Of a stretch of 64,000 nucleotides of DNA, positions 440 through 20,838 are shown one piece after another (the stretch's first letter is position 1; each line of letters opens with the position of its first letter). The DNA is taken from NCBI RefSeq assembly GCF_001278805.1, contig NZ_CP012602.1:4375501-4439500 (forward strand). Direction: 5' to 3'. Below the pieces are notes generated by a model. It made no database searches. It had not been told where the DNA came from and saw only the letters and a list, made by a program, of their open reading frames with translations. This stretch comes from Bacillus sp. FJAT-18017. GTDB lineage: Bacteria > Bacillota > Bacilli > Bacillales > Cytobacillaceae. The position numbers and the translations under genes were made by a program.

Positions 440-2797
440 TTATAAACGAAATGCTATCGTTTTTGCCGTTTCTTCAAAGGATTTTTTTATCTGGCCATCC
501 AACTTCATTGAAACTTCACCTTCAATACCGTGGATAACCAATTCGATTTCATTCCAGACAGGTTTGAAGCTTCCATCGTCGGTAAATGAAACCGAAACGA
601 TATTATTCCTCTGCTCAAAGGCAAACCTGCGTTTTATATAGCATCCTTCTTCATAACTGAATGTACTGCCATCATCATCGTAAACTTCCAATTCACTAAA
701 AGAGCCTTCCTTATAATAAAGATGGATAATAAGCCGCTGATCTGGAAGAGATGCGGATAGCTTTGCATCCGTAAGCGCGAGAGCCGTTCCCTTTTTTATA
801 AAAATCGGAAGTGTTTCAATCCCGGCGCTTGCAAGATGATGTGTCCCGCCTTGAACAGGTTGGTCAGTCCAATAATCCACCCAATCTCCTTCTGGCAGGT
901 ACACAGCCCTGCAAACCGCTCCCGGCTGCATGACTGGTGCAATAATGACGTTGTTTCCAAGCATAAACTGGTCAGAAATATTCCAGGTTTGCGGGTCGTC
1001 CGGATATTCCATCAGCAACGGCCTCATGACAGGTACTCCCGTTGCGTTAGCCTCCGCAAACAAGGTGTAAAGCTGGGGCATCCACTCATAGCGAAGGCGG
1101 ATATAGCTCTTAATGATCTCTTCATATTTTTCCCCGAATGACCACGGCTCCTGCCTGACCGATCCAAGAACAGAATGATTCCTAAAGTAAGGAGTAAAAG
1201 CTCCCACCTGCATCCATCGTGTCAGGAGTTCTCCATTTGAATCGTGGGCAAACCCGCCAACATCCGGGCCGGCCAGCGGGACACCAGACAGGCCTAGATT
1301 CATGACCATAGGCAGAGACATTTGCAGATGCTCCCAAAAGCTGCGGTTATCCCCGGTCCAAACCGCGGCATAGCGCTGGATGCCGGCAAAGCCTGCTCTC
1401 GTCAGAACGAAGGTGCGCTTTCCCTTAAGCAGGTTTTTCATTCCATTATAAGTAGCTTCCGCCATCCTTAATCCGTACACATTATGAAGTTCTTTATGGG
1501 TTTTGGGGTTTCCATCGTTCTTATGGATGACATTCAGATCCATTGTTTTCGTCTCATTAAAAACCGCCGGCTCATTCATGTCGTTCCATATGCCTTCGAT
1601 TCCTTTTTCAGTATAGAAATTATGCAGCTCTCCCCACCAGTCACGAACCTTTTTCTCCGTAAAATCTGGGAATGCGCTTGTTCCTGGCCAAACATCGCCG
1701 AAGTAAATATCACCTTCAATGTATTTGCAGAACTGGTCCATCCGTACCCCTTCAGCATACACCCCATATTCAGGATCCTTTTTTACCCCGGGGTCTACAA
1801 TCGGGACAAGCTGGATGCCATCTTCCCGCAAATCATCAGCGAGTTTTTTCAAGTCTGGGAATCGCTCCTTGTCCGTTGTGAAAACTCTGTACTCATTCAT
1901 ATAATGTATATCAAGATAAATAGCATCGAGCGGAATGCCTTTTTCCTTAAAAAGCCGGGCAAGCCTTCTTACTTCCTGCTCGGATTCATAGCTATACCGG
2001 GATTGGTGATAGCCAATTGCCCATTTCGGCGGAAGCGGCATCCGCCCAGTCAATTTCGTATACTGTTCCATGACTTCTTTAGGCGTTGGCCCAGACAGTA
2101 TATAATAGTCAAGCTGTCCCCCTTCGGCAGCAAATGAATAAGTTTTTCCATCGGTACCAAGATCAAACAACGTTCTGAATGTATTATCAAAGTAAACACC
2201 AAACGTTTGGCCACCCGTTAAAACCATGAAAAATGGAATAGACTGATAGAGTGCATTTGTTTCAGGATTGTGTGGTGCAAAAACATCACTATTCCACATA
2301 ACAAGCTTCTCACCACGCTTGTTGAGATGGCCAGTTTTTTCGCCAAATCCATAAAACTGCGCATCTTCATTAAGCCTTTTCACACATTTAACTTCCTTAT
2401 TATAAGAAGTATACATTCCGCCTGGCGTTTCTTCGGCAAGCACTGCGCCGTTCGAGTCCTCAACCTTAATCCTCAGCGGCGATTTTTCTATGATAATTTT
2501 CAATTCTGGAGTAGATAAGTTAAAACGATCATCTTCCTCGTTAAAGGTTACGTTTGTTTCTTCGCCCTGGAAAGTTACGGCCGGACTTGTTTCCTCTGAA
2601 GCATTATCGGAAAAGTTGGCTATGACTCGTACAGTTTTTTCATTATAAAATTTAATTTTCACAAACCCATTTTCAGCCTTCATTTCAAGCCCATGCTTCA
2701 ATACTGTTTGCTCCACTACATTGCCGATATCGATGTTCTTAACAGCTAGTTCGGCCGTTTTCTTGCCTGGCTGTATTGCAAAACTTGTATCCAGCAT
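440..2797 (-). CDS. GH31 alpha-glucosidase
   Basis: A glycoside hydrolase family 31 enzyme of about 785 residues that releases glucose from the non-reducing ends of maltodextrins. The catalytic nucleophile motif WNDMNEPA is present (Asp at about residue 406), as is the acid/base motif WTGDNRS (Asp at about residue 483), followed by the family-typical LSGVPLAGPDVGGF. There is no signal peptide, so it should act in the cytoplasm on sugars brought in by MalEFG. An upstream TTG at 2812 is in frame, but GGGAG sits 8 bases before the ATG at 2797, which is the better start. It lies immediately downstream of the anchored amylase on the same strand and is the last catabolic gene before the regulator. 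Exact preference (maltose, isomaltose or longer dextrins) cannot be read from sequence. Confidence 0.92.
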   Translation of the reverse strand: MLDTSFAIQPGKKTAELAVKNIDIGNVVEQTVLKHGLEMKAENGFVKIKFYNEKTVRVIANFSDNASEETSPAVTFQGEETNVTFNEEDDRFNLSTPELKIIIEKSPLRIKVEDSNGAVLAEETPGGMYTSYNKEVKCVKRLNEDAQFYGFGEKTGHLNKRGEKLVMWNSDVFAPHNPETNALYQSIPFFMVLTGGQTFGVYFDNTFRTLFDLGTDGKTYSFAAEGGQLDYYILSGPTPKEVMEQYTKLTGRMPLPPKWAIGYHQSRYSYESEQEVRRLARLFKEKGIPLDAIYLDIHYMNEYRVFTTDKERFPDLKKLADDLREDGIQLVPIVDPGVKKDPEYGVYAEGVRMDQFCKYIEGDIYFGDVWPGTSAFPDFTEKKVRDWWGELHNFYTEKGIEGIWNDMNEPAVFNETKTMDLNVIHKNDGNPKTHKELHNVYGLRMAEATYNGMKNLLKGKRTFVLTRAGFAGIQRYAAVWTGDNRSFWEHLQMSLPMVMNLGLSGVPLAGPDVGGFAHDSNGELLTRWMQVGAFTPYFRNHSVLGSVRQEPWSFGEKYEEIIKSYIRLRYEWMPQLYTLFAEANATGVPVMRPLLMEYPDDPQTWNISDQFMLGNNVIIAPVMQPGAVCRAVYLPEGDWVDYWTDQPVQGGTHHLASAGIETLPIFIKKGTALALTDAKLSASLPDQRLIIHLYYKEGSFSELEVYDDDGSTFSYEEGCYIKRRFAFEQRNNIVSVSFTDDGSFKPVWNEIELVIHGIEGEVSMKLDGQIKKSFEETAKTIAFRL

Positions 2798-2814
2798 TAA
2801 CACCACTCCCAAAT

Positions 2815-4521: not shown

Positions 4522-5364
4522 TTACCCTTTTGTTCCGCCTGCTGTCAGGCCGGATACGAAGAAACGCTGGAAGGACAGGAACAATATCGCGATCGGTACC
4601 GCAATTAGTACAGCCCCGGCTGCAAATGTTGTAAACTCGGCGCCAAATTGCTTGGCAACCATGTCGTAAAGCCCAACAGCAAGGGTATATTTTGTTTCTG
4701 TCCTAAGCAGGATACTCGCGATGATAAAGTCACCGAATGGGGCAATAAAAGCGAAAAGAGCAACAACTGCAATAATTGGAGTTGCCAGCGGCATAACAAT
4801 CTGGGCGAAAATTCTCATATGGCCCGCACCGTCAATTTTCGCTGATTCATCCAGCTCTTTCGGAATGGTGTCAAGATAGCCTTTCATCAACCAAGTATTC
4901 ATTGGAATCTGTCCACCGGCATAGACCAGTACAAGCCCAAGATGTGTATCCAAAAGCCCTGTCAGCTGTGCCAGGATGAAGATAGCTATCAGTGCTGCAA
5001 AGTTTGGAATCATCTGCAGGACAAGGAAAGTCATTAAGCTGTTTTTCCTTCCGACAAACCGGTAGCGGGAGAACGAGTAGGCGGTAAAGCTGACAAGCAC
5101 AACCGTAAGCACCATTGTCATTACACTAACCTTCAATGAATTCCAGTACCAGTACAGGTAATTGCTTTGACTTAGATCGAACAGCTCGCGATAGTGTGCA
5201 GTGGTCGCGTTTTTCGGGATAATCGATGATCCTGAAAGACTCTGGCCTGGATTGAAGGATGAACCGACAATCCATGCGAGCGGGTACAATATGATTGCAA
5301 ACATAATTGCAACGACTAAATACGTTAGGGATAAACGGATTATTTTTTGTTTTTTCATATTCAT
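4522..5364 (-). CDS. malG: maltodextrin ABC transporter permease MalG
   Basis: Inner-membrane permease of the carbohydrate uptake-1 ABC family, about 280 residues with six predicted membrane segments. The EAA-loop motif that contacts the ATPase is visible as ELDESAKIDGAGHMRIFAQIVMP at about residues 170-190. It pairs with MalF, whose stop is only two bases upstream of the MalG start (TAG, CT, ATG), so the two are translationally linked. No ATPase gene is in the window; in Bacillus such importers share the general ATPase MsmX, which is an inference here. A second ATG lies two codons in. Orthologous to MdxG/MalG by appearance. Confidence 0.93.
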   Translation of the reverse strand: MNMKKQKIIRLSLTYLVVAIMFAIILYPLAWIVGSSFNPGQSLSGSSIIPKNATTAHYRELFDLSQSNYLYWYWNSLKVSVMTMVLTVVLVSFTAYSFSRYRFVGRKNSLMTFLVLQMIPNFAALIAIFILAQLTGLLDTHLGLVLVYAGGQIPMNTWLMKGYLDTIPKELDESAKIDGAGHMRIFAQIVMPLATPIIAVVALFAFIAPFGDFIIASILLRTETKYTLAVGLYDMVAKQFGAEFTTFAAGAVLIAVPIAILFLSFQRFFVSGLTAGGTKG

Positions 5365-5366
5365 AG

Positions 5367-6647
5367 CTACATCATATCCTCTTCCTGGAATGACTTCGTT
5401 TTCTTAAACTGCCATACTGCTACTGTAATGACAAGAATGGATAACAGAAGTGTAATGGCTGCCGCTTTTGAATACTGCGCTGATGTCATTGTCAGGCGGT
5501 AAATCCAAGAAATCAAAATATCGGTACCACCGGCATTCTGGCCTGTGATTGCAGGGCCTCCGCCATTGAACAGATAAATGATATTAAAGTTATTGAAATT
5601 AAACGTGTATTGCGTAATCAGAATAGGCGCGGTCGCAAACAATACAAGCGGAAGTGTGATGTTCCTAAACTTCTGCCAGATGGTTGCCCCATCAACAGTT
5701 GCCGCTTCGTACAGTTCGTTCGGGATAGCCTGGAGCACTCCGGTTGTCATTGCAAAGATGAATGGGAAGCCCAGCCATGTCTGGATCAGAATCAATGCGA
5801 GCCTGGTGAAGAATGGCTCAGTCATCCAAGGAACATTTTCGATTCCAAAGAATGCTAGAATATGAAGGTTGATTGTACCGAATGATTCATTGAACATACC
5901 CGCGAAAACGAGGATAGAAACGAAAGCAGGTACCGCCCAAGGCAAGATAAACACAGTACGAATGATTGCTTTGCCTTTCAAGTCCTTTTGGTTGATCAGA
6001 ATTGCCAGGAAAATTCCCAATGCAACCTGGAAGGTCGTGGCAATGAATGTCCAGACAATCGTCCAGCCAAATACGGAGAAGAATGTCTGTCTCCAAATAT
6101 CAACTTTGAAAATATCAAAAAAGTTTTTAAATCCTACCCAATCGACTAGCTTTGCAGGAGGCGAATGATAAAGGTCATAGTTTGTGAATGCAAGCAGCAC
6201 GACAAAAATAATCGGGAAAATAACCACGAACACCAACAGCATAAATCCCGGTGACATAATCAGGTATGGGAAACCATTGTCGATCAGATTTTTGTATTGC
6301 TCCCTGAATGTGCTGATCGGTTCATTTTGATCCCGTCTTTTTCCTATTTTATAAGCATCATTCAGGTTGAAGATATAAAAGGCTAGCCCGAAAACGGTAA
6401 CAATAATGGCAAGGATGCCATAAACCATATAAAATATCGAATGATGTTCAAATGGAATTTCGCCGAGAGTGAAAATCCCCCAAAAACCGTAATTCAGTAA
6501 ATTTCCGAATACAATAAAGAATGATGCTGCCAGGATAAGGAAAGCACTTCCCTTAAGGGCCTGTTTATTGTAAAACTGGCCTAACCCCGGAATAATTGAT
6601 AATAGTAGTGCGTTTTTGCGGTGCTTGGTTGAATAGGAATCAGACAT
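5367..6647 (-). CDS. malF: maltodextrin ABC transporter permease MalF
   Basis: Permease partner of MalG, about 426 residues. The N-terminal part (about residues 10-105) holds an extra hydrophobic module starting LLSIIPGLGQFYNKQALKG, which resembles the TM2-type GLGQFYN motif and precedes the usual six-helix permease core; as far as I recall, MalF/MdxF proteins of Bacillus often carry such an extension. The EAA loop is visible as ELYEAATVDGATIWQKFRNITLP near residue 300. The start at 6647 is supported by GGGG and AGAGG just upstream. It is separated from malE by a 470-base gap containing a terminator-like hairpin and a repeat element, which should lower permease expression relative to the binding protein. 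Confidence 0.93.
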   Translation of the reverse strand: MSDSYSTKHRKNALLLSIIPGLGQFYNKQALKGSAFLILAASFFIVFGNLLNYGFWGIFTLGEIPFEHHSIFYMVYGILAIIVTVFGLAFYIFNLNDAYKIGKRRDQNEPISTFREQYKNLIDNGFPYLIMSPGFMLLVFVVIFPIIFVVLLAFTNYDLYHSPPAKLVDWVGFKNFFDIFKVDIWRQTFFSVFGWTIVWTFIATTFQVALGIFLAILINQKDLKGKAIIRTVFILPWAVPAFVSILVFAGMFNESFGTINLHILAFFGIENVPWMTEPFFTRLALILIQTWLGFPFIFAMTTGVLQAIPNELYEAATVDGATIWQKFRNITLPLVLFATAPILITQYTFNFNNFNIIYLFNGGGPAITGQNAGGTDILISWIYRLTMTSAQYSKAAAITLLLSILVITVAVWQFKKTKSFQEEDMM

Positions 6648-7118: not shown

Positions 7119-8393
7119 TTACTTAGAGTGATTAGCCTCAATGTTTTTGTTGATTTGGTCAACTGCAGACTTCATTGCAGCGTCTGGCTTACTCTTGCCA
7201 GTTGCGATTGTTTGAAGTGCATCAGCCATTGGCTTCCAAACTTCTCCCATTTCCGGAATGTTTGGCATTGGGATAGCAACTTGTGTTTGAAGGGCAACAG
7301 CTTGTGCACCCGGGTCATTCTTAATTGCTTCATCTTCAACAAGCGCTACGTTTGTTGGAACTTCGGCAGTTTGTTCAAAACGGTATTTTGCATTTTCATC
7401 GTTCGTGATGAACTCAAGGAATTTAGTTGCATACTCTTTGTTTTTGGAGTGGGCAGATACGTGCCAGCCTTTAACGCCCATGAATGTAGTCATAGGAGTT
7501 CCATCAGCAAACTTTGGCAGTGGAGCAATACCGATATCAATGCCTGCATCCTTATAAGGGCCGAACGACCAAGGTCCGTTCATAACCGCATAAGCATTTC
7601 CATCCTGGAACAATCCATCCATTGCAGAACCGCCGGACTCACCAACGATACCTGCAGGGAATAGCTTTTCAGAATACCATTTAGAGATATACTCGGCACC
7701 TTTGATTGCGCCTTCGTTAGCAAGGCCTACATCCTTAGGGTCAAGAGTGCCATTGTTGTCATTAAATACATAACCGCCGTTGCCGCCGATTACAGCATGT
7801 GCAAAGTAGTAGTTATCCCAAAGAGCTAGGAAACCGTACTTGCCGCCTTTAGTGTTTGCTTTTGCAAAATCATAAAGATCTTCCATTGTTGCAGGAACTT
7901 CAGTCATAAGCGCTTTATTGTAAACGAGAACTGGTGTTTCAGCTGATTTTGGCAGTCCATAAAGTTTGCCATCATATGTTTGGGCAGCAATGGATGATTC
8001 AGAGAAAGTTCCCTTTACAGCATCACTGACTTCAAGTGGGGCAATGAGGCCTTCAGTAGCTACCTGGCCGATTTGGTCATGCGGAAGAGTCACGATGTCC
8101 GGGCCAGTTCCAGCAGGGCCGTCAAGGCGAAGCTGGTCACGCATTTTAGTTGCCATCTCTACTTCTTTGAATTCAATCTTAACGCCTTCTTTTGCTTCGA
8201 AATCTGCAGCTACCTTTTTAAGCCAGCCGGATTTATCTTTATCTTCCCAAACAACTAGCTTTTCAGGCTTTTCAGATGCTTCTTCCTTCTTCTTGCCAGT
8301 GTCTGTGCCTCCGGTTGATTCTTTAGGTCCGCAAGCTGCTAGGGCGCCGAGAACAAGAACAACCATTAAAAGCATGGATAAAGCTTTTTTCAT
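7119..8393 (-). CDS. malE: maltodextrin-binding lipoprotein MalE
   Basis: Extracytoplasmic solute-binding protein of about 424 residues. The N-terminus is a lipoprotein signal peptide with lipobox LAAC and lipidated Cys21, so it is tethered to the outer face of the membrane. The mature part has the family-1 binding fold, with KLVVWEDKDKSGWLKKVAADFE near residue 44 and NGPWSF further on, typical of MalE/MdxE. GGAGGGG lies 6 bases before the ATG. It is the first gene of the malEFG run and is followed by a terminator-like stem. The upstream promoter carries two operators at 8461-8493, so transcription is probably controlled by the LacI-type repressor and/or CcpA. Confidence 0.95.
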   Translation of the reverse strand: MKKALSMLLMVVLVLGALAACGPKESTGGTDTGKKKEEASEKPEKLVVWEDKDKSGWLKKVAADFEAKEGVKIEFKEVEMATKMRDQLRLDGPAGTGPDIVTLPHDQIGQVATEGLIAPLEVSDAVKGTFSESSIAAQTYDGKLYGLPKSAETPVLVYNKALMTEVPATMEDLYDFAKANTKGGKYGFLALWDNYYFAHAVIGGNGGYVFNDNNGTLDPKDVGLANEGAIKGAEYISKWYSEKLFPAGIVGESGGSAMDGLFQDGNAYAVMNGPWSFGPYKDAGIDIGIAPLPKFADGTPMTTFMGVKGWHVSAHSKNKEYATKFLEFITNDENAKYRFEQTAEVPTNVALVEDEAIKNDPGAQAVALQTQVAIPMPNIPEMGEVWKPMADALQTIATGKSKPDAAMKSAVDQINKNIEANHSK

Positions 8394-8770: not shown

Positions 8771-8800
8771 TAAATAAAGGGCGACCCTCCTGGATCGCCC
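8771..8800 (-). terminator. terminator of the second amylase gene
   Basis: On the minus strand GGGCGATCC-AGGA-GGGTCGCCC (8779-8800) is followed by TTTATTTATA. It sits 18 bases past the stop of the gene at 8818-10356 and separates it from the malE promoter. Confidence 0.88.
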
Positions 8801-8817
8801 CCACCTTGCTGTATTGA

Positions 8818-10356
8818 TTATTCCTGATTAATTTTCTTCCTGCTCCGTTTTGCAAGGATAATTAAAAACACCGCAAATCCTATCCAGACAAGTGCAACAG
8901 AACCCATCAAGGCCAAATTCAGTCCTTGCTTTTCAGACAGGGCATATACTTCACTTTCCTCACGGTCAAGAATAAGCGTATAGCCTTCATCGCTTCCTTC
9001 CGACTCATCGCCCTTCAGCAAGCCTCTCAGCTCCATTCCCTCACTTTTAACCTGATCGGGTGAAAGCTTTATTTCCCTGGTTTTACTCGAGTTATTTATG
9101 GCAATGATCGTTGTTTCATCCTCAAATACTCTTTTGAAAACAGCGATTCCATCCTGCTCATACAGCTTTTCCATTGTCCCTCTAGTAAGCGAAGGCAGCA
9201 TTTGCCGCAAATCACTCAATTTACCGATGTGGTCTATCAATTCTTTGTCAGACCGGAAATTCATTAGCTTCCGATTGTCCGGTGCCTCTCCCCCATCAAG
9301 GGCGATTTCACTCCCATAGTAGACAATCGGAATGCCCGGTGTTGTATACATATACGTGAGCGCCTGCTTCCAGGGAGTGCCCGGGAAGATATTATTTGAA
9401 ATGATTTCCCTTGTAAACCTGACTGTATCCTGATGATCCATGAAGGTCCCAGTCTCATAAGGATTATCGCTGTTGCCTTGAGCTTTTTCCCATTTTGTAA
9501 AAATACCGCCTAGGTCCCCATCAGGCTGTGAGAACGCCTTCCTAATTTCATTAAAGGAAGTATAGTCATAGTATCCATTAAAACCAGCATTTCTGTATTC
9601 TTTAAGAAGTTCAGAGTCCGATGTACCAAAATCGGCAATCAGGTAGACATTCTCCTTTTCAGTCTTTACCGCTTTTGAAAACTCACTCCAGAAGTCAGCG
9701 GGTACTTTATCAGCAGAACTTAACCGGTAACCGTCAATATCCGTTTCGGAAATCCACCACTTCCCAGCATCAATCAAGTAAGCTTGAACATCTGGATTTT
9801 CATGGGCCAGGTCAGGAAGGCCATCCTGCCAGCCATTCAACTGCTGTTGCCGGCTGCCATCGCTTCCCGCCTCTTGTTCAGCATGAAACCAGTCTTGCCC
9901 TTTTTCCTGAACAAGCTTGCTGTTTTTGCCAACATTGTTTGCCGGAAAATCAATTATTACTTTCATATCGAGGCTATGTGCCTCGCTGACAAGCTCTTTA
10001 AACTTTTTTACAGAACCGAAATGCTCTTCCGTTTTAAAATAATCGTCCACCCAATAACCGTGGTAGCCATTTTCCACATTATCAAAAATCGGTGAGAGCA
10101 TAATGGCTGTAAATCCCATATCCTTTATGTAGCCAAGACGATCAATAATTCCCTGGAAGTCGCCTCCGTTATAAGCGAGGGGATCTTTTGCATTTATGCC
10201 AGCAGTATCCTTGCTGCTATTGTTAAAGCGGTCTATCATAATCGAATATACCATTTCGTCCTGCCAAAGCCTTTCTTCTCTTTCCATTCCTTGTACCGGC
10301 AATGCCCATATAAGCAGAAACGGTATCAGGAAGCATGCCGCCATTTTGCCTTTCAT
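8818..10356 (-). CDS. membrane-anchored GH13 amylase homolog lacking catalytic residues (probable pseudoenzyme)
   Basis: About 512 residues: signal peptide (1-23), GH13-like barrel, domain C, and a C-terminal hydrophobic anchor followed by KRSRKKINQE. It aligns along its whole length with the active amylase at 2815-4347, with long stretches shared (WQDE, GGDF, GIID, MGFTAI, GYHGYW, TYMYTTPGIPIVYYGSEIALDG). The four GH13 signature regions are broken: DFPANN replaces DFVVNH; GYRLSSADK has Ser213 where the nucleophile Asp should be; LIADFG has Asp242 instead of the acid/base Glu; FMDHQD keeps Asp310 but changes the preceding NH to HQ. The reading frame is intact with its own terminator, so it looks maintained rather than decaying. 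It is unlikely to hydrolyse starch; carbohydrate capture, sensing, or partnering the active enzyme are inferences. Confidence 0.88.
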   Translation of the reverse strand: MKGKMAACFLIPFLLIWALPVQGMEREERLWQDEMVYSIMIDRFNNSSKDTAGINAKDPLAYNGGDFQGIIDRLGYIKDMGFTAIMLSPIFDNVENGYHGYWVDDYFKTEEHFGSVKKFKELVSEAHSLDMKVIIDFPANNVGKNSKLVQEKGQDWFHAEQEAGSDGSRQQQLNGWQDGLPDLAHENPDVQAYLIDAGKWWISETDIDGYRLSSADKVPADFWSEFSKAVKTEKENVYLIADFGTSDSELLKEYRNAGFNGYYDYTSFNEIRKAFSQPDGDLGGIFTKWEKAQGNSDNPYETGTFMDHQDTVRFTREIISNNIFPGTPWKQALTYMYTTPGIPIVYYGSEIALDGGEAPDNRKLMNFRSDKELIDHIGKLSDLRQMLPSLTRGTMEKLYEQDGIAVFKRVFEDETTIIAINNSSKTREIKLSPDQVKSEGMELRGLLKGDESEGSDEGYTLILDREESEVYALSEKQGLNLALMGSVALVWIGFAVFLIILAKRSRKKINQE

Positions 10357-10421: not shown

Positions 10422-10470
10422 CATAGTATTTTACCATACTATGAACCTTTGTCACTTTCGCTTAAAATTG
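10422..10470 (-). promoter_or_regulatory. candidate promoter with palindrome for the amylase homolog
   Basis: On the minus strand GTGACA, 16 bases, then TAAAAT form a plausible sigma-A promoter. The -10 lies in the spacer of a 22-base palindrome, CATAGTAT-6-ATACTATG (10422-10443), which could be an operator. It does not resemble the LacI-type sites before malE. On the plus-strand side, the near-palindrome CTAAAGCCGTTTAG (10477-10490) is another possible site, in the leader of the cyclomaltodextrinase gene. Confidence 0.45.
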
Positions 10471-10526: not shown

Positions 10527-12308
<1,782 letters not shown>

Positions 12309-12570: not shown

Positions 12571-14418
12571 TTAGCATTCTACTACATTTACATTATACTT
12601 CTTGAACCAGGAATGCATCTGGACGAAGTGAGCCAGCAGCTGCGGGCCTGCCATCAATTGGCCGAAGAATGGTTCCGTAAAAGAATTACCCCCGCTCTCT
12701 ACCAAATCCTTAAGCTGTTTTTTATCAAAAAATTCATATAAAGCAGATGACCTGTCGGAAAGAGCTTCATTTGCAAGTTTTTGGACAGCCTCTGTATATG
12801 CCGGATGATGCGTCTTTGGATATGGACTCTTTTTCCGATAAAGGACATCAGCGGGGAGAATTCCGTCCATTGCCTTCCGAAGGATTCCCTTCTCACGATT
12901 GCCATGCATTTTCATTTCCCACGGGATGTTCCATACATATTCCACCAGCCGATGGTCCGCAAATGGAACACGCACTTCAAGGCTCGCTCCCATACTCATC
13001 CGATCCTTCCTGTCGAGCAGCGCTGTCATGAACCAGACCATATTCAGGTAAAATAATTGCCGCCTCCTCGCATCCTCCTTGCTTTCTCCTTCAAGTGCCG
13101 GCGTTTCCTTGACAGTATCCAAATACCTTTCCATTAAATAATCATTGATTTTCAACTTTTTCCGCCAACCTTCTTTTAGGAGCGAAAGCCTCATCTCGGT
13201 TGAGCGCATCCATGGAAATCCTTCGCGCTCAAAGTCTGCTTTTCGATGGAACCAGGGGTACCCGCCAAAAATCTCATCTGCACATTCCCCCGACAAACTT
13301 ACGGTGTACTCTTTCTTTATCTCACGGCAAAACCATAGCAATGATGAATCAATATCCGCCATTCCTGGGAGGTCACGGACCTCCATTGCCTCTTTTAGCT
13401 CTTCTGCTAATTGTTTCTGGGAAATGATGCTCTTAACATGCTGTGTCTGAAAGGAGCTGCTCATCAGGTTAATCCAGAACTCGTCAGAATCGGGCTGAAA
13501 TTCATTGGATGCAAAGAAATACTGATTGTCTTCATAGTCAATCGAAAAAGTTCGGAGCGGGGCAAGATTTGTTCCTTGATACTCGTTGGCAGCAATTGCG
13601 GTAATGATGCTTGAGTCAAGCCCTCCGGAGAGGAACGTGCAAAGCGGCACATCGGACACAAGCTGCCGTTTCACGGCATCATCAACAAGAAAACTCACCT
13701 TTTCCGCAGTTTCATCCAAACTTTCCGAATGCGTTTGGCTTTTCACATTCCAGTACCGCCAAAGCTTCAAGCCGTTCCGGGAATATGTGAGCGCGTGGCC
13801 GGGCCGCAGCTCCTTGATTCCCTTGAATACGCCCGCACCCGGCGTTCTGGATGGAGCCATACCAAATAGTTCAGCAAGCCCTTCCCGATCCAGTTCTGCT
13901 TTCATCTCGGGATGAGCGAGCAGAGCCTTAAGCTCAGAGCCGAAAATAAAGCCCTGCTTTTCACTATAAAATGCTGGCTTCACTCCCAGCCTGTCACGTG
14001 CAAAAAATAATTTTTCCGCGGCGCTGTCCCAAACTCCAAAGGCAAATATTCCATTCAGCCTGTCAACGCACTCTTCTTTCCACTCCATATAAGAAGCAAG
14101 CAGCACTTCTGTATCAGAATGGCCACTAAAAGAATATCCTTTAAGGAGGAGTTCTCTACGCAAATCTTCTGTGTTGTAAAGTTCACCATTGTAGCAAATT
14201 GTATAGGTGCCACCAGCGCCTTTTTTGGTCATCGGCTGCCTGCCACCAACGAGATCCACTACCGCGAGGCGCTTATGGCCAAATCCGGCGTGGCGATCGG
14301 TCCAAATATTTGTGTCATCCGGACCTCGTTTTGATAATGTATCTGTCATTTTTTCAAGAATTATTTTCTCTTTTTCCATATCCCGACGAAAATCAACCCA
14401 GCCGGCAATCCCGCACAT
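12571..14418 (-). CDS. asnO: asparagine synthetase (glutamine-hydrolysing), AsnO type
   Basis: Makes asparagine from aspartate, glutamine and ATP. At 615 residues it matches the length of B. subtilis AsnO. The N-terminal glutaminase domain begins with Met-Cys2-Gly-Ile-Ala, Cys2 being the nucleophile that frees ammonia; the synthetase domain has the ATP pyrophosphatase motif LSGGLDSS at about residue 263 and SGECADEIFGGYPWF further on. GGAGGAG precedes the ATG. Its neighbours yisN, yisL and yisK occur in the same order in B. subtilis, which identifies it as asnO (yisO), the sporulation-linked paralog, rather than asnB or asnH. The function in spore formation is known for B. subtilis and inferred here. 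Confidence 0.9.
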   Translation of the reverse strand: MCGIAGWVDFRRDMEKEKIILEKMTDTLSKRGPDDTNIWTDRHAGFGHKRLAVVDLVGGRQPMTKKGAGGTYTICYNGELYNTEDLRRELLLKGYSFSGHSDTEVLLASYMEWKEECVDRLNGIFAFGVWDSAAEKLFFARDRLGVKPAFYSEKQGFIFGSELKALLAHPEMKAELDREGLAELFGMAPSRTPGAGVFKGIKELRPGHALTYSRNGLKLWRYWNVKSQTHSESLDETAEKVSFLVDDAVKRQLVSDVPLCTFLSGGLDSSIITAIAANEYQGTNLAPLRTFSIDYEDNQYFFASNEFQPDSDEFWINLMSSSFQTQHVKSIISQKQLAEELKEAMEVRDLPGMADIDSSLLWFCREIKKEYTVSLSGECADEIFGGYPWFHRKADFEREGFPWMRSTEMRLSLLKEGWRKKLKINDYLMERYLDTVKETPALEGESKEDARRRQLFYLNMVWFMTALLDRKDRMSMGASLEVRVPFADHRLVEYVWNIPWEMKMHGNREKGILRKAMDGILPADVLYRKKSPYPKTHHPAYTEAVQKLANEALSDRSSALYEFFDKKQLKDLVESGGNSFTEPFFGQLMAGPQLLAHFVQMHSWFKKYNVNVVEC

Positions 14419-16648: not shown

Positions 16649-17566
16649 TTAAAAACCATTTAAAAACGAGATAACTACTGGTCCCAGAAGGACGATAAAC
16701 AAACTTGGGAATATAAACAAAACTAGCGGGAACAACATTTTTATTGGGGCCTTCATGGCAGCCTCTTCTGCCCTTTGTTTTCTCTGCTCCCGCACCTCGA
16801 CAGATTGGGCACGTAGGACCTGGACCATTCCTATCCCAAGTTTTTCAGCTTGGACAATGCTACTAATGAAGTTCTTTACTGAATCGACCCCTTCAAGTCT
16901 ATCGCGGATTCCTCCCAGAGCTTCTCTTCTTACCTTACCTAGGCGCATCTCTTCTAATGACCTTTGGAATTCATCGGAGAGAACTCCACTCCTTTTAGAA
17001 ACGAGTTTGGCAACTGCGGCATCAAAACCAAGTCCCGCTTCAAGACTGACCGTCAAAAGGTCAAGCGTGTCAGGCAGCTCCTTTAGCGCTAGCTTCTCAC
17101 GAGTTTTCGTTTTTTGTTTTAAATAGAAATGGGGCATAATTCCACCAAGTAACACCCCTGTAAGGACTGCAACAAAAATGGAGGATGAAGTAAGATTTAT
17201 TAGCAGACCATAGCCGGCAAATGCAAGTGGGAATCCGATGCTGCAAGCTGCCTGTAACAGCCTGAAGTCCACAGGTGTCATTCCGAATGGATTGCCTGCC
17301 CTTTGGAGCTTCATTTCTATTTTAGCTTCTTTCTCACCAGGCATTCTCTTTTTGAAGCTTTTTTTAAAGTCATTTAATACGGGCTTAAGGAATCTATGAT
17401 AAAAGGAATGCTGCTCCTCCTTAGCCGGAATGGATTCTATCGTTTCTTCGATCCCAGTGAGATAGTGTGCAACCCGTTTGTCTAACTGTTCTTTTTTCTT
17501 GGATTTTAAGGTGAGAATACTGTATGCCAAGAGGCTAACTGTCATGAAAAATGTAAGGTAAATCAA
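16649..17566 (-). CDS. tadC: Tad pilus platform protein TadC
   Basis: About 305 residues, type II secretion F (GspF) fold, with hydrophobic segments at the N-terminus, near residues 110-150 and at the C-terminus. It is the second of two tandem platform proteins that sit in the membrane around the TadA motor. Conserved stretches include LPDTLDLLTVSLEAGLGFD and the C-terminal EEAAMKAPIKMLFPLVLFIFP. The start is TTG, six bases after GAGGTG, which also spans the tadB stop (GAG GTG TAA), so tadB and tadC are tightly coupled. Last gene of the operon, followed by a terminator. Confidence 0.9.
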   Translation of the reverse strand: MIYLTFFMTVSLLAYSILTLKSKKKEQLDKRVAHYLTGIEETIESIPAKEEQHSFYHRFLKPVLNDFKKSFKKRMPGEKEAKIEMKLQRAGNPFGMTPVDFRLLQAACSIGFPLAFAGYGLLINLTSSSIFVAVLTGVLLGGIMPHFYLKQKTKTREKLALKELPDTLDLLTVSLEAGLGFDAAVAKLVSKRSGVLSDEFQRSLEEMRLGKVRREALGGIRDRLEGVDSVKNFISSIVQAEKLGIGMVQVLRAQSVEVREQRKQRAEEAAMKAPIKMLFPLVLFIFPSLFIVLLGPVVISFLNGF

Positions 17567-17569
17567 CTC

Positions 17570-18532
17570 TTACACCTCAATTTGCGTAATTTTATTAATA
17601 ACGATTAGACCAATTCCGCACGAGATGATGCCTGCCGCTACCATTCCGAGTCCTATCGGATGTTTGAACATTGGTCCGATATAGCCAGGGTCTATTAAAA
17701 AAAGAGCTCCACCTAACAGGAATGGCAGCAAGCCAATAACCATCCCTGACATCCGGCCCTGTGCTGTCAGTGTTTTGATTTGGCGCTGAATTTGCGTCCT
17801 GTCCCTGATTGTCTCAACTATTTTCTCCAAAACTGTGGCAAGGTTTCCGCCAACCTGACGCTGAATCAGGATAGCTTGAATCATTAAATCCAAATCATCG
17901 CTCGGCATCCGTTCCTTTAACTCATTCAATGCCTCTTCAATGCTGCTTCCATACTGCATTGATTTAATAACCAATTCAATTTCTTCCTTAATAGGTGACG
18001 ATGATTCCTCTGCAACAGATTTAAGTGCCTGAGGGAAACTAAAGCCTGCCCTTAGCGAGCCAATAATCGTGGTTATCATGTCGGAGAGGCCATCATTAAA
18101 TTTTTCAGTCCGCTCTTTTTCTTTTTTCTTTATGATAAATCCTGGCAACAAATATCCGGTTAAAGCACCAGGAATAAACCATATCCATTGTTCAAAAAGC
18201 AGAAATAGGAAAAAGCCTCCGAAAGCAGTTGTTATTAACTGAAAAGCCACAAACTCATCCGGCTTGAGGGGGACCCCAGACCTGGCAAGCATAGTTTCCA
18301 GTTTGTTTGTTTTCTGTTTTGTAACGAACTTCTTAGTGAGATTCTTTCTTGCTGCAGCGTACCGTGCAAATAAATTCATTTCATCATTGCTAATTTCAAT
18401 TTCTTCAGCCCCAGCCAAATATCGCTGCATTCTTTTTTCTATTCTTTGGTTCCGAAAGAAGATTAATTGAAAAATTCCATAAAAAACAATAAAAGAAGTA
18501 AATAGAATCAGTACAAGAAGTATAGCCTTCAT
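17570..18532 (-). CDS. tadB: Tad pilus platform protein TadB
   Basis: About 320 residues, GspF-type membrane platform protein of the Tad/Flp pilus. It has an N-terminal membrane segment, a central pair of helices (about residues 95-130) and two C-terminal helices. The family block FNDGLSDMITTIIGSLRAGFSFPQAL and QRQVGGNLATVLEKI are present. GGGGGAA precedes the ATG, and it begins two bases after the tadA stop. Confidence 0.92.
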   Translation of the reverse strand: MKAILLVLILFTSFIVFYGIFQLIFFRNQRIEKRMQRYLAGAEEIEISNDEMNLFARYAAARKNLTKKFVTKQKTNKLETMLARSGVPLKPDEFVAFQLITTAFGGFFLFLLFEQWIWFIPGALTGYLLPGFIIKKKEKERTEKFNDGLSDMITTIIGSLRAGFSFPQALKSVAEESSSPIKEEIELVIKSMQYGSSIEEALNELKERMPSDDLDLMIQAILIQRQVGGNLATVLEKIVETIRDRTQIQRQIKTLTAQGRMSGMVIGLLPFLLGGALFLIDPGYIGPMFKHPIGLGMVAAGIISCGIGLIVINKITQIEV

Positions 18533-18534
18533 TA

Positions 18535-19965
18535 TTATTCCCCCTGCTCAATAAATACACTTGGAGGGATATGAATTCCGGTATTTTCAAGCCTTTCATA
18601 AAACTTTGGCCGTACTCCGGTTGGTACAAGTCTCCCAATATACTTTCCCTGTTCATTTACGCCAATCTGCTGATAGACAAAAATATCTTGGAGAACAATA
18701 ACATCTCCTTCCATTCCTTGGACTTCTGTTATATGAGTGATTTTTCGAGACCCATCCTTTAGCCTTGTTTGCTGAATGATGACATCAAGGGCCCCGGAAA
18801 TTTGTTCTCGGATTGCCTTTATAGGAAGATCAACTCCCCCAAGCAATACCATTGTTTCTAGCCTTGATATCATGTCCCTCGGGGAATTTGAGTGACCAGT
18901 TGCAAGTGAACCGTCATGACCTGTGTTCATAGCCTGAAGCATATCGAGGGCTTCAGCCCCCCTTACTTCCCCGATTACTACCCGGTCGGGCCGCATCCTT
19001 AGTGAGTTTCTGACAAGGTCCCTAATTGTAATTGAACCTTTACCTTCAATATTCGGTGGCCTGGATTCCAATGAAACTACGTGGTCTTGACGCAGTTGAA
19101 GTTCAGCCGCATCCTCAATCGTTACAATACGTTCGTCGTTTGGGATAAAGTTGGAGAGCACATTTAATGTGGTCGTTTTTCCGGACCCTGTTCCTCCGCT
19201 AACAAAAATATTAAGACGGGCTTTGACACATGCATCAAGGAAAACAGCCATTTCTTTTGTAACCGTTCCAAAGTTTGTCAGGTCTTCAATTGTAAAAGGA
19301 TCCTTGGAAAACTTTCGGATAGTGATAGTCGGACCATTCAATGCAAGTGGAGGAATAATTGCATTTACACGGGAACCGTCGGGAAGCCTTGCATCCACCA
19401 TTGGTGAACTTTCATCAATTCTTCTCCCGATTGGCGCGACAATTTTTTCAATAACATTCATGACATGTTCATTATCCCGAAATTTAATATCACTAAGAAC
19501 AAGCTTCCCTTTCCGTTCACAATAAACCTGATGAGGCCCATTTACCATAATCTCGGATACTTCCTCATCTAGAAGCAAAGGGTTTATTGGCCCAAAGCCT
19601 GTCAGGTCATTGGTCAGTTCGGCTACGACTTTCTTACGATCAACCATCCCCCGGAAAGAATCATTATCCTTAATTGCCTCCATTGCCATTTCATCCAGCT
19701 TTACAACAATGGCTTCTACCTCTTCATCCTTTAATTCTTGCAGAATTCTTTTATGAAGAATACTTTTCAATTCCTGTTCCTTGTCATATTGTTTTTGGCG
19801 GATGGGTTCAATCTGGGACTCTTTTATCTCTTCTTTTGGAATGGTTTGTTCCCGCTTCTCTAATATGGTTGGGAGACTGTCTGGAGCAGCCACTTCCAAT
19901 GTAGCTGAAGACTCTTCTATCCTCGTGTTGCTATTTTTCTGATTTATACGGTCAAGCAGCTTCAT
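18535..19965 (-). CDS. tadA: Tad pilus assembly/secretion ATPase TadA (CpaF)
   Basis: About 476 residues, hexameric secretion ATPase that powers Flp pilus assembly. Walker A SGGTGSGKTTTLNVLS is at about residue 255, the Asp box and Walker B (RMRPDRVVIGEVRGAEALDMLQAMNTGHDGS) follow, and the His box is intact. The N-terminal domain carries the CpaF-type DLTGFGPINPLLLDEEVSEIMVNG. The first 60 residues are charged and variable. Its ATG overlaps the tadZ stop by four bases (ATGA). It is named by family; the Gram-positive Tad systems have no outer-membrane secretin and none is seen here. Confidence 0.95.
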   Translation of the reverse strand: MKLLDRINQKNSNTRIEESSATLEVAAPDSLPTILEKREQTIPKEEIKESQIEPIRQKQYDKEQELKSILHKRILQELKDEEVEAIVVKLDEMAMEAIKDNDSFRGMVDRKKVVAELTNDLTGFGPINPLLLDEEVSEIMVNGPHQVYCERKGKLVLSDIKFRDNEHVMNVIEKIVAPIGRRIDESSPMVDARLPDGSRVNAIIPPLALNGPTITIRKFSKDPFTIEDLTNFGTVTKEMAVFLDACVKARLNIFVSGGTGSGKTTTLNVLSNFIPNDERIVTIEDAAELQLRQDHVVSLESRPPNIEGKGSITIRDLVRNSLRMRPDRVVIGEVRGAEALDMLQAMNTGHDGSLATGHSNSPRDMISRLETMVLLGGVDLPIKAIREQISGALDVIIQQTRLKDGSRKITHITEVQGMEGDVIVLQDIFVYQQIGVNEQGKYIGRLVPTGVRPKFYERLENTGIHIPPSVFIEQGE

Positions 19966-20819
19966 TTGGTTACTCCTCCCTTCTTACGTTTCCATGGAAA
20001 TAGCGTTCTCGATTTGTTTTTTTTCTTCATCGTTTTTGGGATAGGAGATTGTGAAGCAATCATCTCCCCCATTTTAAACACCGCTTTAGCAATATCGGAT
20101 TTCGTATTGCTAATAACAAAAGGAATCCCTACATTTAAAGACCTAGAGCATATTTGAAAATCATTCGGGATATATATTGGGGCTCCTTCTCCCAGAATTT
20201 TGGCACCATCCTCAGCCTTAATGACACTTTCCATATTGGCCCTGTTGAGGATAACCCTGACTTTTTCCCGTATCCCCAGGATTCCCAACGTTTCCAATAA
20301 TAGTTTTGTATTTTTCATAGCAGCCATTTCAAGAGTGGTAACAACAAGAATTTCATCGGCTCTTTCTATTAAGCTGAGTGTATTCTCATTTAATCCTGCT
20401 CCTGTATCACAAACAACAAATTCATTCTTTTTTAATAAAAGATCAATGATCTTCAGACTCGCCTCTTTAGTAACAAGGTCTGCATACTCCGGCCTTTCTG
20501 GCGCAGGAAGTACACGAACCCCGCTCGGATGGACTGACATATATTCTTCCAATCTATTTTCATCAAGGCTAGTTATGCCCTCCACAGCCTCCTTGATTGT
20601 AAAAACGGGCTGCAAATCCATAGCCAGTGAAACATCACCAAATTGGAAGTCCCCGTCAAGTACTGCAACAGAATTATTCCCTTTTGATAAAGCAACGGCT
20701 AAATTGACGGAAAGGATGGTGCGGCCAATCCCGCCCTTTGCACTGCAGACTGCAATCACCCTTCCACGCGGGGGAGGAGTACCACCTTCTGTAGTTTTCA
20801 TTTCAATATTTCCTGCCAT
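19962..20819 (-). CDS. tadZ: TadZ/CpaE-like ParA-MinD family ATPase
   Basis: About 285 residues. The deviant Walker A CSAKGGIGRTILSVNLAVAL is near residue 27 and the MinD-like segments VAVLDGDFQFGDVSLAMDL and FVVCDTGAGLNE follow. The terminus is basic (KKKNKSRTLFPWKRKKGG). Such proteins position the pilus machine at the membrane or cell pole. There is no N-terminal receiver-like domain of the kind found in Caulobacter CpaE. The start at 20819 follows GGAAGGTG; an in-frame GTG at 20828 is less likely. Confidence 0.88.
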   Translation of the reverse strand: MAGNIEMKTTEGGTPPPRGRVIAVCSAKGGIGRTILSVNLAVALSKGNNSVAVLDGDFQFGDVSLAMDLQPVFTIKEAVEGITSLDENRLEEYMSVHPSGVRVLPAPERPEYADLVTKEASLKIIDLLLKKNEFVVCDTGAGLNENTLSLIERADEILVVTTLEMAAMKNTKLLLETLGILGIREKVRVILNRANMESVIKAEDGAKILGEGAPIYIPNDFQICSRSLNVGIPFVISNTKSDIAKAVFKMGEMIASQSPIPKTMKKKNKSRTLFPWKRKKGGVTK

Positions 20820-20838
20820 CCTCTTCACCTTCCATCAA

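Follow-up and report, generated by a model that had tools for sequence, protein, structure and literature searches.

The gene at positions 8818 to 10356 of the window, by which we mean the whole stretch of 64,000 nucleotides analysed here, encodes a homolog of amylases in which, judging by alignment, two catalytic residues have been lost, namely the nucleophile and the acid/base. The product of this gene, which we call the pseudoamylase, is probably a selected, membrane-tethered, outward-facing and non-hydrolytic surface protein of the GH13_45 kind. In the sequences that we compared, its fold, anchor-like end and open frame are kept under purifying selection, and it persists in genomes without the canonical paralog and without the importer that accompany it in the window. 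We infer that a non-catalytic role of this protein outlives catalysis.

The protein and its locus

The pseudoamylase contains a GH13 barrel (Pfam PF00128, residues 39-358, 163 bits) and an amylase C domain (PF22026, 98 bits). Its signal-like start and TM-like end were called with a hydropathy scan, which is not a dedicated signal-peptide predictor and whose TM-like cut-off was reached by 3 of 1022 internal 45-mers. By the same scan, the C-terminal segment is present in all 84 degenerate and all 62 intact proteins of the survey described below, and the signal-like start in 82 and 61 of them, respectively. An earlier note on this DNA had described a full-length protein with signal peptide, GH13-like barrel, domain C and C-terminal anchor, and the Pfam and hydropathy results agree with this description. 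In the cell, the protein would accordingly be expected to be secreted and anchored in the membrane.

Genes resembling malE, malF and malG lie between the pseudoamylase gene and its paralog, on the same strand (see the table). The earlier note held that promoter and terminator were intact. Sites of both kinds are indeed present, but promoter-like sites are near chance level in the window (8 found versus 5.1 +/- 2.0 in shuffles); for terminator-like sites the numbers are 4 and 1.6 +/- 1.2. The upstream stretch of the gene is conserved in EB01 and largely so in FJAT-27225.

Features of the locus, with positions in the window
Feature	Positions	Strand	Basis or remarks
GH31 alpha-glucosidase-like gene, after the canonical paralog	440..2812	-	Profile matches
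Canonical paralog, intact D/E/D triad, 510 aa	2815..4347	-	Pfam and alignment; predicted amylase
MalG-like importer permease	4522..5364	-	ORF; named by reading of the ORF
MalF-like importer permease	5367..6647	-	ORF; named by reading of the ORF; reference for MalF searches
MalE-like solute-binding protein	7119..8393	-	NCBIfam: GanS best (528 bits), MalE 224 bits, both below cut-offs
Terminator-like hairpin 3' of the pseudoamylase gene, 11 pairs	8777..8802	-	Pattern scan
Pseudoamylase gene	8818..10356	-	GH13_45-like, 512 aa, open frame; S213/D242/D310 replacing D/E/D
TM-like C-terminal segment and positive tail of the pseudoamylase, about residues 480-512	8821..8919	-	Hydropathy scan
N-terminal signal-peptide-like segment of the pseudoamylase, residues 1 to about 23	10288..10356	-	Hydropathy scan; boundary by eye
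Promoter-like site upstream of the pseudoamylase gene, GTGACA-16-TAAAAT	10428..10455	-	Pattern scan; near chance level
GH13 gene of the neopullulanase/maltogenic-amylase type, transcribed divergently from the pseudoamylase gene	10527..12308	+	Profile matches
Glutamine-dependent asparagine synthase-like gene (AsnB/AsnO kind)	12571..14418	-	ORF; named by reading of the ORF

The divergent promoter region between the pseudoamylase and neopullulanase-type genes also holds a perfect inverted repeat, CATAGTAT-N6-ATACTATG, at 10422-10443, which overlaps the promoter-like -10 element. With up to 3 mismatches allowed, the window has no other match to this repeat (expectation 0.17, for a pattern chosen post hoc); the repeat is identical in EB01 and partial in FJAT-27225, and is perhaps an operator. 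Farther along the window, a gene run at 16649-20828 on the minus strand resembles parts of a Tad/Flp pilus (TadC-, TadB-, CpaF- and CpaE-like, by reading of the ORFs). Elsewhere in the window's genome, a frame of 1981 aa (G000:C1:1804448-1808104, plus strand) has two GH13-type matches, and might encode a large amylase or pullulanase.

Catalytic site and known relatives

The pseudoamylase and the paralog are 46% identical (236 of 511 columns), and their alignment reproduces exactly the replacements named in the earlier note. D215 of the paralog, the nucleophile, is S213; E244, the acid/base, is D242; DFVVNH is DFPANN; and NHD is HQD, a change that leaves the third catalytic Asp (D310) in place. 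Where the classical GH13 machinery has an Asp nucleophile, a Glu acid/base and an Asp stabiliser, the pseudoamylase therefore has S213, D242 and D310, and it is predicted to be without amylase activity.

We also considered the sugar contacts, using the 13 that are named for TASKA in the portion of PMC4791539 available to us, which we transferred by hand via an alignment of the pseudoamylase to its solved relatives. The pseudoamylase keeps 5 of the 13 (Y101, W102, R211, D310 and R362), while the paralog has 11 of them, its two differences being P for Y143 and R for K216. The -1 platform, consisting of Y101, W102 and R211, is kept in all 8 orthologs from the window's genus, and the +1/+2 contacts are mostly gone.

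As a baseline for retention, we used 116 positions that hardly vary among the 55 intact copies accompanied by mal genes. Mean retention of these positions is 0.78 in the window's genus, 0.83 in a genus that we refer to as genus 18, and 0.80 in other degenerate copies. With the triad counted, sugar contacts in the window's genus are retained less than other invariant positions (0.51 versus 0.80, p 0.016), and depletion is also seen in genus 18 and in the other degenerate copies (p 0.00015 in each), but this test is partly circular because the groups are defined by the triad. With the triad left out, depletion is not significant in the window's genus (0.69 versus 0.80, p 0.23, or 0.12 if the cut-off is loosened). 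Contacts are still less kept in genus 18, with p 0.023, and in the remaining degenerate copies, with p 0.002; across these two groups p ranges from 0.0003 to 0.023. The idea in the earlier note that change is concentrated in the signature regions therefore holds for this genus when the triad is counted, and lacks significance when it is left out. Besides the other triad positions, those most lost include W87, H142, E244, H311 and D360 (paralog numbers).

The nearest solved relatives are ASKA/TASKA and GTA (526, 520 and 501 bits), the next being a neopullulanase at 167 bits; together with the barrel and domain C, this places the pseudoamylase in the GH13_45 fold. It resembles ASKA/TASKA (PDB 5a2a-c), GTA (4e2o) and BaqA in its domains, Trp pair, LPDL motif and C-terminal segment. 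However, these proteins have a D/E/D triad and measured activity, whereas the pseudoamylase has S/D/D. The accessible parts of the literature give as GH13_45 features an adjacent Trp pair before CSR-II (PMC5347038, PMC11448133) and LPDlx in CSR-V (PMC11448133, PMC11239784). The pseudoamylase has KWWI at 199-202 and LPDLA at 180-184; in the survey, 75 of the 84 degenerate proteins and 54 of the 62 intact ones have WW at this place, and LPD occurs in 52 and 60 of them, respectively. The last 45 residues of the pseudoamylase include four aromatics (Y471, W491, F494 and F497), as counted rather than aligned with BmaN1; the C-terminal region of GH13_45 is described as having five conserved ones.

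GH13_45 proteins with aberrant triads have been in print since 2017. According to the sections that we could access, BmaN1 (Sarian et al. 2017, PMC5347038) has a K/E/H triad, a signal peptide and a C-terminal TM region, and is active at 8.4 U/mg; in PMC11448133 its activity is 1.54 U/mg, with a kcat of 255.8 per second. If U means micromole per minute, the two values in the latter paper, at least in its accessible part, disagree by more than 100-fold, and this mismatch bears on the claim that the enzyme is active with an aberrant triad. Sarian et al. (PMC5347038) also list seven sequences with irregular triads (Nos 28-34), which lie nearer to BaqA than to BmaN1 and are seen as intermediates. 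The pseudoamylase fits this description of irregular triads near BaqA, although the comparison is by description and not by sequence, and in the available text these seven sequences come without gene context, selection test, loss count or proposed role. GH13_45 is now said to include aberrant-triad proteins (PMC11239784, available in part). Within their accessible portions, a review of alpha-glucan enzymes (PMC11046441) does not name GH13_45 and PMC12695923 adds nothing further on its aberrant-triad members. Our literature search, whose range mostly excluded subscription journals, found no record of a selection test, of repeated triad loss or of a link to mal genes.

Selection and persistence within the genus

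The dN/dS of the pseudoamylase is 0.127 (0.064-0.233) against EB01, whose copy is 97% identical, and 0.103 (0.063-0.150) against FJAT-27225 (77%), a comparison in which synonymous sites are near saturation. The corresponding values for the paralog are 0.196 (0.106-0.324) and 0.091. Because the pseudoamylase's values of 0.10-0.13 are close to those of the canonical paralog, we conclude that the gene is not decaying. Importer and neighbour genes have lower values in several cases (0.014-0.084 in the EB01 pair), so the constraint on the pseudoamylase is real, but it is not the strongest of the locus.

All 8 genus genomes that we searched hold a copy of the pseudoamylase. Asp in place of Glu at 242 and the DFPAN motif occur in all 8 orthologs, but the other catalytic positions are more variable: at 213 there are five S, two D and one G, and at 310 two each of D, N and K, one G and one E. 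Position 214 is S in 6, D in 1 (EB01) and A in 1. Given this variation, no new fixed site is seen in this genus, and the earlier question of whether orthologs share the same replacements has the answer that they do so in part, throughout at 242 and DFPAN and irregularly at 213 and 310. Sequencing error is rejected as an explanation, since EB01 and FJAT-27225 also are without the acid/base Glu. The pseudoamylase thus combines replaced catalytic residues with a preserved frame and purifying selection, as would be expected of a selected pseudoenzyme. The dN/dS values, the orthologs and their shared replacements support the earlier view of a selected pseudoenzyme, in which inactivity is predicted from the residues.

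The irregular replacements at 213 and 310 might be taken to mean that the gene is slowly decaying on its way to being lost. We consider this most improbable, as the dN/dS is like that of the paralog and is not an order of magnitude above that of the neighbours. Moreover, all 142 loci that we read, which were picked from good matches, have an open frame of more than 440 aa, and in genus 18 new residues have become fixed, all 24 copies having P at 213 and E at 309. Stops had been flagged in some copies; the two whose coordinates were checked, in G096 and G153, lie at the natural C-terminus. Plain decay is therefore rejected on the basis of dN/dS and open frames. The earlier note had also suggested that the protein could work together with the active amylase at the MalE importer, and one form of this would be a helper that holds starch near the paralog and the importer. 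This suggestion fits the gene order in the window and two relatives, where the gene is directly upstream of malE and the paralog comes after malG. However, the paralog is found in only 3 of the 8 genus genomes and MalF, at E<=1e-120, in 4, such that the copy is kept in 5 genomes without the one and 4 without the other; L089 has mal genes and a pseudoamylase copy but no paralog. Helping the paralog at MalE cannot therefore be the general role, and we regard a helper function as very unlikely.

Since BmaN1 is reported active with its K/E/H triad in two papers, some residual activity of the pseudoamylase is conceivable, in which case it would be a hydrolase or transglycosylase, slowed or altered, whose catalytic set is unorthodox. 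The pseudoamylase shares with the BmaN1 group, as described in the accessible text, its GH13_45 character, a replaced triad, a signal-peptide-like start and a C-terminal TM-like region. It also keeps D310, R211, Y101, W102 and R362, and EB01 has an Asp at +1 of 213 (SD), like Asp203 of BmaN1 after Lys202. Nevertheless, the BmaN1-type triad of Lys-Asp, Glu and His is replaced in the pseudoamylase by S213-S214, D242 and D310. BmaN1 keeps its acid/base Glu231, which is Asp in 8 of 8 genus orthologs, while the Asp at +1 is present in 1 of 8 (EB01 only) and D310 is kept in 2 of 8. On balance, we judge such an activity to be unlikely.

Triad state, mal genes and a possible second function

A match at E<=1e-60 occurs in 170 of the 193 genomes of the window's family, and 7 of these have two (at most 7 candidates were scored per genome). 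For the order, we sampled 299 genomes, of which 180 match the paralog at E<=1e-60, although some of these matches may be other GH13 proteins. From among the matches listed, we hand-picked 140 stretches, mostly of 18 kb, for genus spread, weak matches included. Together with two named loci and the window, these stretches yielded 146 proteins, 62 with D/E/D and 84 without, which, being hand-picked, do not estimate prevalence. One triad residue is replaced in 21 of the degenerate proteins, two in 19 and three in 44. The count leaves out L001 and L002 (copies of L084 and L083) and ORFs of up to 440 aa, and L213-L216 were read for motifs only.

We scored a copy as having mal genes if ORFs within its stretch had their best match to the window's MalE and MalF at E<=1e-15; this definition may take in other sugar importers and overlooks mal genes that lie outside the stretch. 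Intact triads occur with such genes in 55 cases and without in 7, and degenerate triads with them in 10 and without in 74 (n=146). The ten degenerate copies adjoining mal genes are four of the window's genus and L050, L060, L099, L178, L186 and L192. The seven intact copies without mal genes in the stretch are L003, L056, L140, L145, L172, L173 and L193, of which L003 and L140 are near-copies that were both counted, and L056, L173 and L193 are altered next to the triad. Of the 61 degenerate copies in the window's family, 37 come from genomes without MalF (E<=1e-120), 17 from genomes with a MalF at another site, and 7 adjoin mal genes at their own locus. For 21 of the 23 intact copies the locus includes mal genes, and for the other 2 there are none. 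Given the exceptions and the 17 genomes with MalF elsewhere, the triad state is tied, though not strictly, to mal genes at the locus itself. For 56 of these 61 degenerate copies, there is no other match at E<=1e-60 in the same genome. An asparagine synthase gene lies upstream on the same strand in 49 of the 74 degenerate copies without mal genes, with a median gap of 178 bases.

Some individual loci deserve mention. L050 and L099, from genus g5 of the window's family, have D/E/Q and E/E/D triads beside apparently complete mal genes, and each is its genome's sole match at E<=1e-60. The genomes of L093 (G033) and L101 (G047) each have, besides an intact copy at a mal locus, a degenerate one in another place (N/G/H and N/D/H), and so contain paired copies like the window's, as separate cases.

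In a tree of 102 rows from which the signature columns were removed, supported branches force at least 10 triad changes and the best tree has 13, with the bootstrap not settled. Independent pairs in this tree associate intact triads with mal genes in 7.3 cases, with 0.0 against and 2.7 undecided (median p 0.016, range 0.008-0.125). A quick tree of all 146 rows forces 15 changes, with 9.5 pairs for and 0.3 against (median p 0.004). The smaller tree omits 44 rows: 19 of the 24 from genus 18, and 25 more that are mostly adjacent to rows that were retained. The omitted rows include the long branches L188 and L192, the latter being degenerate with mal genes and an exception to the link. The rows of 48- and 32-row trees were hand-picked. 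Local triad changes on supported branches are seen for L142 beside L133, L102 beside L100, L095 with L046/L053, and L181 beside L143. Free trees set the two copies of the tandem pair apart, but trees in which the genus copies are held together are not rejected (AU p 0.90; p 0.49), and in the former test the constrained tree gains 30.9 log units over the free one. Quick tree building with these rows therefore overlooks better trees, and the counts of changes are rough. Intact triads are spread over 25 family labels and degenerate ones over 10 (each set including one label that is an NCBI name), so losses are likelier than gains.

These patterns could be explained if anchored GH13_45 proteins also served a non-catalytic purpose on the outer side of the membrane. 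Where the importer was lost or moved, or a second copy was present, cleavage would no longer be needed from the gene, and the catalytic residues would drift while the scaffold was held. We tentatively propose, with somewhat more doubt than belief, that the anchored GH13_45 amylases of bacilli are two-function proteins, which cut starch and also perform a conserved non-catalytic surface job, and that loss of mal genes leaves a pure pseudoenzyme. In genus 18, where V, I or L stands at 242, the fixed new residues of the pseudo-triad suggest a settled new role (e.g., L057, L061-L064, L066 and L067). For the window's genus, the job might be to dock an alpha-glucan or other glycan, uncut, on the -1 platform, a specific proposal that we think is possible but rather doubtful. 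Capture or sensing of starch, as suggested in the earlier note, is likewise conceivable, with the -1 platform kept in all 8 orthologs but the +1/+2 contacts largely lost. As a guess, the second job could concern the envelope, or sporulation in view of the asparagine synthase neighbour. It is important to consider that several observations count against our preferred reading of a selected, non-hydrolytic surface protein: the reported activity of BmaN1, the ten degenerate copies beside mal genes, the retention of only 5 of 13 sugar contacts and the non-significant depletion outside the triad in this genus.

Many of the homologs are labelled alpha-amylase in the source, yet 84 of the 146 in our hand-picked set, which is no measure of prevalence, read without the classical triad. 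The recurrent loss of the triad also bears on the claim that aberrant-triad GH13_45 proteins are active. If the two-function proposal is true, conversion from enzyme to pseudoenzyme has occurred at least 10 times in this order, which would be among the more recurrent conversions of this kind. If loss of catalysis tracks loss of the linked importer while selection maintains the anchored fold, then a very well-studied fold would have an unrecognised function at the bacillus surface, and at least 10 natural replicates would be available for finding it.
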